Assembly (NCBI GenBank): GCA_030446525.1
Contig: JAUJNC010000182.1
Span: 1-12,795 of the forward strand
DNA: 12,795 nucleotides
Reading direction: 5' to 3'
DNA from: Armatimonadaceae bacterium
Lineage (GTDB): Bacteria; Armatimonadota; Armatimonadia; Armatimonadales; Armatimonadaceae
In this document: piece by piece, positions 8,704-12,036 of the stretch
How the letters are laid out: the number at the start of each line of letters is the position of its first letter
Numbering within the stretch: position 1 is the stretch's first letter
Program-made: the position numbers and the translations under genes
Notes under the pieces: generated by a model
Database searches by the model: none
Seen by the model: only the letters and a program-made list of their open reading frames with translations
Told to the model about the DNA's origin: nothing

Positions 8704-9236
8704 ATGCGGAATCGTTTTTCGGTGCGGGCGGGCGCGGTGCTCGCCCTTGCTACCCTGGCGGTCTTTGGCGGGCGTGAGGCATCGCGCGCGCAGTCCCCGG
8801 GTCTGCCGGTCGGCTCGAAACCGCCGTCGTTCACGGCTAAAACATTGCGCGGCGCAGCGATCGACCCCACCAAGCAAAGTGGGCAAGGTGGTAGTGCTGG
8901 ATTTCTGGGCCACATGGTGCCTCCTGCCGTGAGTCCATCCCGACCCTTCAGGCGATGCACAACAGATACGGGCGCCAGGGGCTGATGGTGATCGGCGCTT
9001 CCAACGAAGAGCCCGCGACGGTGGCCCTTCGTCTCCAAGAACAAGATGACGTATACCATAGCCGCGGGCCCGGCCGTGTCGAGCGCCCTGGGAAAGTACA
9101 GGTGCGGGGCATCCCGACCATGGTCGTCATCGACAAAAAGGGCGCCGTCCGCATGTATGAGGTAGGCTTCCATCCTGTCGCTTCCAAGCCCAGGCTGGAG
9201 GCGATGATCAAGAAGCTGCTCGCCGAGCGAGCGTAG
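8704..9236 (+). CDS. Secreted TlpA/ResA-like thioredoxin-fold protein (frameshifted)
   Basis: This is a thiol-disulfide oxidoreductase of the TlpA/ResA type, acting outside the cytoplasmic membrane. A signal peptide occupies residues 1-30 (RNRFSVRAGAVLALATLAVF, cut near SRAQS). The AhpC-TSA/thioredoxin domain reads GSKPPSFTAKTLRGA, VVVLDFWATWC, CRESIPTLQAMHNRYGRQGL, MVIGASNEEPATVA, FVSKNKMTYTIA and GIPTMVVIDKKGAV, with the cis-Pro in GIPT. The active-site CxxC is disrupted: TGC CTCC TGC lacks two bases, so CPPC or similar is inferred. Four shifts, near 8880, 8918, 9026 and 9105, are needed for about 178 residues. The ATG has a strong AAGGAG site. It is first in the plus-strand group and could reduce the cysteines or selenocysteines of its secreted neighbours, which is inference. 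Confidence 0.85.
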
Positions 9237-10347: not shown

Positions 10348-10611
10348 GCCGAAGCGGCGGGCGGAGGCCATGCAGTCGGCCGGGTCCACGGCCAGGGCGT
10401 CGAACGCGGCGACCGCCTCGGCGAGGGCGTCGGGCTCGTTGCGGGCGTAGAAGGTCCCCGGCACGCCGTCGATGACGCGCTCGAGCACGCCGCCCACGCC
10501 CACCGCGATCACCGGGCGCCCCGACGCCAGCGCCGCCACGGCGGCGATCGCCAGCAGCACCGTGGCGGGCACCACCACCGCCCGGGCGGGGCGCAGGAGC
10601 CGCTGGGGGGG
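10348..10611 (-). pseudogene. Fragment of a family-4 glycosyltransferase (C-terminal domain), antisense and truncated
   Basis: On the minus strand about 85 residues match the nucleotide-sugar-binding end of GT4 enzymes: RPARAVVVPAT, then ALASGRPVIAVGVGGVLERV, IDGVPGTFYARNEPDALAEA, VAAFDALAVDPADCMASARR. The usual E(x7)E motif before ALASGRPVIA is not intact: where EDFGIAxVEA is expected the sequence reads VLLAIAAVAA, so both glutamates are lost. No upstream GT4 domain or proper end is present. The left edge merges into the plus-strand secreted protein and the right edge lies at an 8-G run (10605-10612), where the barrel protein begins. This is a remnant, a rearrangement or an assembly join. 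It is not functional as it stands. Confidence 0.6.
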
Positions 10612-11442
10612 GAGAGCGCACCTTCGTTCGCCTTCGACATCTTCAACCCGGCGACGCGATTCGGTTTCGACAGCTTGTCCCGGCTGTACCAGGGAAGCGA
10701 CCGCATCGCCAACCCGGACGATCTCAAGATGTCCCGTCAGGAGAGCGTGTTTTCGCTCCAGTACTCCCCCCAGACCACGCTCAACGTGCGGCTGGAGATC
10801 CCCTACGTGCGCGTCACCAGCGAGCAGCGGATCGACGGGCAGACGCGAGAATCGCGCGCCAGCGGCATGGGGGATGCGATGCTGAGCGCGAAGAGCCGTT
10901 TCCGGGCGGAGTTCGGCCCCGACTGGAAGGCCATGCACGCCTACATGGTGGGCCTCCAGCTTCCGACGGGCGAGCACAACGGGCGGGAGCCGGACGGCAC
11001 ACCGCTTCTGCCCTCGGAGCAGCCCGGCACGGGCAACTGGGGCGTCCTGCTCGGCTACGCGTTCGCGTATGAGCGCCTCCAGGACACGACCTGGGCCAGC
11101 GCCCTGTACTCGCGGGATCTCGAGGGCGGATCGCGGCGCGGCGACATGCTGACGCTTGACGCCGCCTACGGCTACTGGGTGCGCCGGGCGAACCGGCCGC
11201 AGGACCTGGGCGTCATCCTGGCGGCGGGGCCGCGGCTGCAAGTCATGGGCAAGGACCGGGTGAGCGGGCAAAGCGACCGGGACAGCGGTTCCCGGATGGC
11301 GGGTCTGCATACGACCTTGATCGCCACGAAAGACAAGTACCAGGGCCGGATCGGCCTGCTTGTGCCCGTGTACCAGCGCTACAACGGCACGCAGCTCGGC
11401 TCCGGGTTGGAGTTCCGGGCGGGCCTGGAAGCGCTGTTTTAG
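10609..11442 (+). CDS. Outer-membrane beta-barrel protein, Phenol_MetA_deg-like (5' end missing)
   Basis: About 275 residues of beta-rich sequence end in a Phe (RAGLEALF) before TAG, as in outer-membrane proteins. Alternating polar/hydrophobic strands are visible: ESVFSLQYSPQTTLNVRLEI, GMGDAMLSAKSRFRAEF, KAMHAYMVGLQLPTGEHNGR, GNWGVLLGYAFAYER, GVILAAGPRLQVMG and RIGLLVPVYQRYNGTQLGSG. The pattern and the GLQLPTGEHN turn resemble the 'transporter' family PF13557 (MetA-pathway of phenol degradation), whose members are porin-like with poorly known substrates. The frame is open upstream to 10174, but that part is the shadow of the antisense glycosyltransferase fragment. No signal peptide is found, so the true N-terminus is missing at about 10610. 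The HMA gene follows 21 bases later. Confidence 0.72.
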   Translation, partial: GESAPSFAFDIFNPATRFGFDSLSRLYQGSDRIANPDDLKMSRQESVFSLQYSPQTTLNVRLEIPYVRVTSEQRIDGQTRESRASGMGDAMLSAKSRFRAEFGPDWKAMHAYMVGLQLPTGEHNGREPDGTPLLPSEQPGTGNWGVLLGYAFAYERLQDTTWASALYSRDLEGGSRRGDMLTLDAAYGYWVRRANRPQDLGVILAAGPRLQVMGKDRVSGQSDRDSGSRMAGLHTTLIATKDKYQGRIGLLVPVYQRYNGTQLGSGLEFRAGLEALF

Positions 11443-11463
11443 ATGCCAAGAAAGGAAATAGCC

Positions 11464-12036
11464 GTGCGAACGAAAGCAACGACCGCGCTCGCGGCGCTGG
11501 CCGCAATCTTGCTGGCCGGCCCGCTCCGCGCCGATGTAAAGAACGCCTGGGTGGGGGTCAACGGGGCCACCTGACCCACCTGAGCATACAGCCTCGACAA
11601 GGGGCTGCGACGCCTGGCAGGCGTCGAAAAGACACAACTCGTGACCGGTAAAGCGCCGCACCTGGAGATCCAGGTGAAGCGCGGCGCCTGGATCGACCCG
11701 GCGCAGTTCTTCCGGAACATCAGGGACGCCGGCTACCAGGCGCGCAAGGACGACGTGCGCCTGACCCTGACCGGTCAGGTGGCGAAGCAGGGCGACCAGC
11801 TTCTGTTCCTGCTGAACGACGTCAAGCCGGGGCCGCAGGCTTTCCTGCTCGCCCCCGACACGCCCAAAGACCCCAGAGAGCGGGCCGCTTTCACCGCCGC
11901 CTACAATGACATGATCCGGCGGGTCGGCCAGACCGTCGGGCTGGAGGCGCTGTGGAAGCCGGCGGCCGACAAGGGGGGCAGGGCGACGCTGCTCGTGCGG
12001 CAGATCCGCCCGGCCCCGTCCACGGGCAGCTCGTGA
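11464..12036 (+). CDS. Secreted HMA-domain protein, probable selenoprotein with UxxU (two in-frame TGA)
   Basis: A periplasmic or secreted metal-binding protein of 190 residues. The GTG at 11464 has an AAGGAA site 6 bases upstream; an in-frame ATG at 11443 is the alternative. A signal peptide occupies residues 1-23 (TTALAALAAILLAGPLRA). Residues 24-90 are a heavy-metal-associated domain: NAWVGVNGAT-U-PT-U-AYS, LDKGLRRLAGVEKTQL, LEIQVKRGAWIDPAQFFRN, IRDAGYQA. Both metal-ligand positions, normally Cys, are TGA (codons 37 and 40, at 11572-11574 and 11581-11583). The frame is unbroken on both sides with no indel. Residues 91-190 are a beta-rich domain of unknown type (VRLTLTGQVAKQGDQLLFLL ... ATLLVRQIRP). 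The gene ends with TGA at 12034-12036. The family call comes from sequence pattern; selenocysteine insertion is inferred. Without recoding the gene would be read only from an internal GTG at 11641. Confidence 0.8.
11589..11626 (+). promoter_or_regulatory. Two abutting hairpins, candidate bacterial SECIS elements
   Basis: Hairpin 1: CAGCCTC (11589-11595), loop GACAA, GGGGCTG (11601-11607), 7 pairs including one G-U. Its loop starts 21 bases after the first TGA and begins with G. Hairpin 2: CGACGCC (11608-11614), loop TGGCA, GGCGTCG (11620-11626), 7 perfect pairs. Its loop starts 31 bases after the second TGA and holds GG. Both fit the known bacterial SECIS spacing (loop roughly 16-37 bases after UGA, G early in a small loop). 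They lie inside the HMA coding sequence. Confidence 0.6.

Follow-up and report, generated by a model that had tools for sequence, protein, structure and literature searches.

What is made from a gene whose reading frame carries TGA at exactly the two positions of a CxxC-type site, and is otherwise open? This is the question raised by a locus in the window, by which we mean the whole stretch of 12,795 nucleotides that was analysed. The gene and its parts are the following.

11451 to 11456, forward strand: AAAGGA, a Shine-Dalgarno-like stretch ahead of the GTG (by eye)
11464 to 12036, forward strand: UxxU protein gene, with GTG start, 190 codons and stop TGA at 12034 to 12036
11464 to 11532, forward strand: signal-peptide-like N-terminus, residues 1 to 23, with an LRA end before D24 (by eye)
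11533 to 11748, forward strand: HMA-like beta-alpha-beta-beta-alpha-beta domain, residues 24 to 95
11572 to 11574, forward strand: TGA within the frame at codon 37, where the CxxC-type site has its first Cys position
11581 to 11583, forward strand: TGA within the frame at codon 40, where that site has its second
11737 to 12012, forward strand: C-terminal OB-like domain, residues 92 to 183

Codons 37 and 40 are the sole TGA interruptions among the 190 codons of the frame that begins at the GTG, and their context is GAT-U-PT-U-AYSLDKGLRRL, as the initial annotation had read it. A scan of genome contigs revealed a homologue, L001, in the Armatimonadetes MAG G001, which is 53% identical to the window and has the identical TGA-CCC-ACC-TGA at the site; its ATG start is preceded by a stretch similar to the AAAGGA of the window. 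The two genes differ in the 15 codons before codon 37 by eight synonymous and no non-synonymous changes, and because these differences are purely synonymous the region ahead of the stops looks translated. In the other five pairs compared over the same 15 codons, non-synonymous differences number 3 to 7 and synonymous ones 4 to 9.

We searched 291 genomes of the phylum of G001 with the window protein and obtained matches in 18, eight with in-frame TGA and ten TGA-free and HMA-like; nine of the latter sit in frames of more than 700 amino acids. When these 291 genomes were searched with the profile A3, 184 had a match. Among the matches listed, in-frame TGA is present in all 10 full-length relatives, and the rows that are not full-length include none with TGA and one with TAG. 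The relatives comprise five UxxU genes (G001, G004, G005, G211, and G212), three CxxU genes (G011, G039, and G210) and two C-x6-U genes (G009 and G209), in which the U aligns with codon 40. The last two are distant, with E-values of 1.3e-8 and 1.0e-11 that are not better than those of many HMA-only rows, and we counted them as members of the family because they are matched over the full length, carry TGA and have the hairpin H2 (see below). Codon 40 or its equivalent is UGA in all 11 genes read. The position of codon 37 is UGA in six of the nine genes with CxxC spacing, the window included, and Cys in three; these are the CxxU genes L020, L021, and L031, whose motifs CPTU, CPSU, and CHIU represent an exchange of Sec and Cys at this position. 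In the tree of the family, where one of the 10 inner branches is well supported, the window groups with L021 (92/85) and then with L001 and L020, which weakly suggests that at least two Sec/Cys changes would have been required at position 37. A viral collection contained a single partial match (L002, 35% over residues 47 to 83).

The search was extended to 5.8 billion database proteins, for which 14 distinct homologues are listed. Two of them, P0004 and P0011, are full-length and have CxxC at the site. Eleven of the 14 start downstream of it, and they include P0002, the truncated form of the window's own protein, which is the 131-residue open reading frame from 11641 that ordinary gene calling produces. 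P0012 (Abitibacteriaceae) and P0015 (Armatimonadetes), each named hypothetical protein in the database, are short and start after the UGAs. Gene callers thus cut the relatives as they cut the window gene. This pattern, together with the frames that are broken elsewhere in the window, is what one could hold in favour of a pseudogene or a sequencing error, with the 131-residue protein as the true product. Against it, the site carries in-frame TGA in 10 other genomes, the change between the window and L001 upstream of the site is purely synonymous, and the CxxC homologues are full-length. We therefore rejected sequencing error and pseudogene, which are extremely improbable; the window gene does not look like either. 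The recurrence of identical TGA codons in other genomes speaks against a read error, and in the homologue search that had been proposed as a check both codons appear as TGA or Cys, with no stop conserved there.

The TGA codons could also have been reassigned in this lineage, to Trp, Gly or another amino acid, in a protein that would be free of selenium. One database homologue, P0013, has W-P-T-W, with W at both U positions; perhaps this is TGA called as Trp. The stop codons speak against reassignment: TGA is the stop in five of the nine gene ends read (window, L020, L021, L023, and L025), the others being TAA in L001 and TAG in L022, L024, and L031. Within the window, TGA closes the frame of FliK, the pieces of MotB and the frame of the last barrel gene, in agreement with the initial annotation; FliK and one MotB piece are named by Pfam, and some of the TGA-ending frames in this region are cut by indels. 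Moreover, the listed matches to selA, selB, and FliM are devoid of in-frame TGA, homologues have Cys at the site, and there is a SECIS hairpin as well as a machinery for Sec. Reassignment was rejected on this evidence, and we give it only a minute probability.

The machinery for selenocysteine was searched in the genomes that carry the gene. Both tRNA-Sec and selB were found above the cut-off in seven of the eight carriers tested, and selA in eight of 10 carriers, compared with 138 of the 291 genomes phylum-wide. In three of the four carriers tested for selD (G005, G009, G209, and G210) this gene scores above the cut-off and has one in-frame TGA; in G210 it is a contig-edge fragment with one TGA, below the cut-off. 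G005 has no selA above the cut-off, and neither selA, selB, nor tRNA-Sec was found above the cut-offs in G210. The gap in G210 may reflect an incomplete bin, a foreign contig or a loss. Its locus, L054, has a CxxU gene with both hairpins despite the missing selA, selB, and tRNA-Sec. The FliM of the window (PF02154) has its best match across the 291 genomes in G011, at 77% identity, and by this comparison G011 is the nearest kin of the window; it has tRNA-Sec, selA, and selB. Family-wide UGA and Cys homologues support the selenoprotein reading of the initial annotation. The window gene is very probably a real double-Sec selenoprotein, and insertion of Sec in the window's own organism is, in our view, highly probable.

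Two adjoining hairpins follow the UGA codons, and we compared them with the rules for bacterial SECIS elements given in PMC13188914: a loop of 3 to 9 nt, a G within the first two loop positions, a spacing of 16 to 37 nt and a folding energy of at most -7.5 kcal/mol.

11589 to 11607, forward strand: hairpin H1, 7 bp, loop GACAA, conforming, at a spacing of 21 from UGA37 of this gene, to the SECIS rules
11608 to 11626, forward strand: hairpin H2, 8 bp, loop GGC, candidate SECIS for UGA40 with a spacing of 32

In the window, both UGAs thus pass the rules. H2 does so for UGA40 in nine of the 11 genes (seven of nine, plus both later members), with a spacing of 31 to 32 nt and a loop that begins with G or UG in the passing genes; under the strict rules it fails in L024 and L025. 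Control codons, taken from the same genes and from upstream DNA, pass in 0% to 20% of cases. Only two of the six first-position UGAs pass by means of H1, which is also kept in two genes with Cys at that position, and the idea of one SECIS per UGA across the family was accordingly not upheld. A search of Rfam across the window returned nothing at gathering scores.

The conservation of H2 was assessed on an ungapped alignment of the 11 genes (A6). In this alignment, 87.5% of the H2 cells are paired, and the covariation score is 0.230, against 0.097 in shuffles that take no account of how the genes are related (1 of 500 as high); when the position of H2 is slid along the alignment the score is at most 0.080. 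Pairs changed on both sides number two, which is not above the shuffles (185 of 500 as high). For H1 and H2 jointly, the score is 0.240 against 0.135 (0 of 500), with five pairs changed on both sides (46 of 500). We also drew 5,000 sets of sequences under a synonymous-codon null that preserves the protein sequences and the codon usage of every gene and, like the shuffles, ignores kinship: 77 of the 88 possible H2 pairs are formed, against a null mean of 55.5 (sd 3.5, maximum 68; 0 of 5,000). Gene by gene, the probability of the H2 pairing under this null is below 0.05 in L001, the window (W), L021, and L083 only. The codons of its stem include Arg CGC and Leu CTG in all 11 genes. The 48 bases after UGA40 fold more stably than synonymous shuffles in six of nine genes (p at most 0.05), with no excess in the other three (L021, L024, and L025). 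H2 is conserved beyond the needs of the protein.

The N-terminal domain has a predicted fold of the HMA type, with the metal loop preceding helix 1, and the profile A4 matches 1afi (MerP) at 2.5e-9. The Pfam HMA family (PF00403) did not return the window at E 0.1; L001, P0004, and P0011 score 22.7, 14.3, and 19.7 bits, all below the gathering score of 24.8. The N-termini of the relatives are hydrophobic and resemble that of the window. For the C-terminal domain, no relation to DUF5818 was established (P0011 scores 13.9 bits against 27).

The genes around the site in the window are the following.

8704 to 9236, forward strand: probable TlpA-like thioredoxin gene (by eye), frame broken near CxxC, weakly supported
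10579 to 11442, forward strand: PF13557-type beta-barrel gene directly upstream (1.8e-07), 54% identical to L001 and 57% to L048
12269 to 12781, forward strand: second barrel-like gene, downstream, PF13505 at 15.1 bits, below the cut-off of 28.7, with a counterpart in L050 at 39%

The PF13557-type barrel is the commonest neighbour of the family. The second barrel-like gene has a 5' part broken by frame changes between 12090 and 12270. The frame of the TlpA-like gene shifts near its CxxC motif, between 8881 and 8945, owing either to an indel in the assembly or to a break in the gene itself; Pfam matches neither of its two open pieces, and its one tblastn match is to the redoxin of L051 (27%, 8.8e-05, residues 1 to 88). 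Among the relatives, a redoxin gene of the TlpA/ResA thioredoxin type is nearby in G001, G004, and G211, a CsoR-type repressor (PF02583) in G210 and a piece of a CusA/CzcA-type RND protein in G211. Copper-radical-oxidase-like genes (PF07250, PF09118) adjoin the C-x6-U members of G009 and G209.

L083, 1467 to 4019, reverse strand: copper-radical-oxidase-like gene
L084, 4693 to 6786, forward strand: copper-radical-oxidase-like gene

The oxidase-like proteins might be clients of the chaperone-like protein. Overall, these neighbours suggest copper handling in the envelope, the signs of copper coming from single loci.

Other small genes are found at these loci. Downstream of the CxxU gene of G039 lies a frame (L020, 2127 to 2525, forward strand) with a signal-peptide-like start and one in-frame TGA, in the UxxC motif MDGALUGGC; it is perhaps a second selenoprotein, and a search of NCBIfam at 0.001 gave it no match. 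Upstream of the barrel there are small, Cys-rich proteins that look secreted (L001, 3277 to 3780; L053, 7663 to 8163; L051, 8291 to 8770), which may belong to the same operon. The first has BLAST relatives in L048 and L050; the other two look similar by eye and fall in no Pfam family.

We consider it probable that the gene encodes a secreted selenoprotein, a UxxU HMA domain with an OB-like domain, that acts as a soft-metal chaperone of the envelope. The SelB/tRNA-Sec route would read both UGA codons as selenocysteine, directed by the in-frame hairpins downstream, with H2 as the candidate for UGA40 and H1 possibly serving UGA37 in the window gene. The mature protein would then be a Sec-x-x-Sec HMA-fold domain fused to the OB-like domain, and its likeliest task would be to bind a soft metal ion and hand it on in the envelope, with copper(I) as the leading candidate, followed by Hg(II) or Ag(I). 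The barrel would act at the outer membrane, and a TlpA/ResA-type thioredoxin would perhaps keep the site reduced; in Bradyrhizobium, the copper chaperone ScoI is a substrate that TlpA reduces (PMC6696091). These parts differ in strength. Metal binding is likely, and copper has a little less than an even chance of being the metal. We think TlpA a rather unlikely reductant, the more so because the TlpA-like gene of the window is weakly supported. More tentative is the full picture of a dedicated family of envelope metallochaperones whose Sec-x-x-Sec site, a bis-selenolate, holds Cu(I) (or Hg/Ag), and whose two UGAs, nine bases apart, are decoded by way of two adjoining SECIS-like hairpins.

The selenoprotein might instead be a redox protein that binds no metal in the cell, its UxxU/CxxC pair working as a thiol/selenol oxidoreductase or together with some TlpA-like protein. 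According to PMC9312934, a redox role is assumed for most selenoprotein families of prokaryotes, the redoxin gene noted above is near in three relatives and probably in the window, and the C-x6-U branch lacks the CxxC spacing typical of HMA sites. Yet the predicted fold is that of HMA and not of thioredoxin, the site is at the position of the metal loop, and the neighbours are linked to metals in four relatives (G210, G211, G009, and G209). We thus hold a redox protein to be rather improbable, and retain the envelope chaperone as the preferred reading.

These results add a conserved selenoprotein family whose database gene calls begin past the UGAs, and link selenium to what is probably envelope copper handling in a little-studied phylum. 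The first ligand of the family switches between Sec and Cys and the second is Sec in every gene read, and there are CxxC homologues too. If the reading is correct, this is a natural UxxU/CxxU/CxxC series in which to measure the effect of selenium on metal affinity and transfer. The small soluble domain makes it testable what selenium gains in metal binding, as opposed to redox catalysis; the sharing of SECIS elements between two close UGAs is testable as well.

How does the family compare with known systems? The view that secreted UxxU HMA proteins are rare or undescribed was too strong: UxxU metal-binding selenoproteins are already catalogued, in NF041115, and the kind is also represented by the selenoprotein model NF045683 and by the MerP selenoprotein listed for GOS (PMC2398784). 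An open-access literature search yielded no description of this family or of Armatimonadetes selenoproteins, nor of the two-domain secreted build, the C-x6-U branch or the Sec/Cys series. MerP (TIGR02052) is a periplasmic mercury-binding protein without the OB-like domain of the window protein, which scores 20.0 bits against a cut-off of 92.55. The copper chaperones of the CopZ/Atx1 type and the HMA domains of copper ATPases share the HMA fold and the position of the metal loop. They are cytosolic proteins or parts of ATPases, whereas the window protein combines Sec-x-x-Sec with a signal-peptide-like start and an additional domain; its score for NF047957 (CopZ) is 22.9 bits against 85. NF045683, the MerT/CopZ fusion-like heavy metal transport selenoprotein, also handles metals and has an HMA-like part, but is a transporter fusion (P0004 scores 12.6 and L001 13.1 bits against 375, the window not being listed). 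In the table of PMC13188914, NF041115 appears as a metal-binding protein and putative mercuric reductase, with UxxU and two Sec. The window family is far below the cut-offs of both NF045683 and NF041115, the scores for the latter being 22.1 (window), 23.6 (L001), 32.4 (P0004), and 33.4 bits (P0011) against 95. Like the window protein, NF041115 (UxxU_metal_bind) has an HMA-like region in which UxxU replaces CxxC; it differs in being a model of 74 positions that lacks the C-terminal domain of the window protein.
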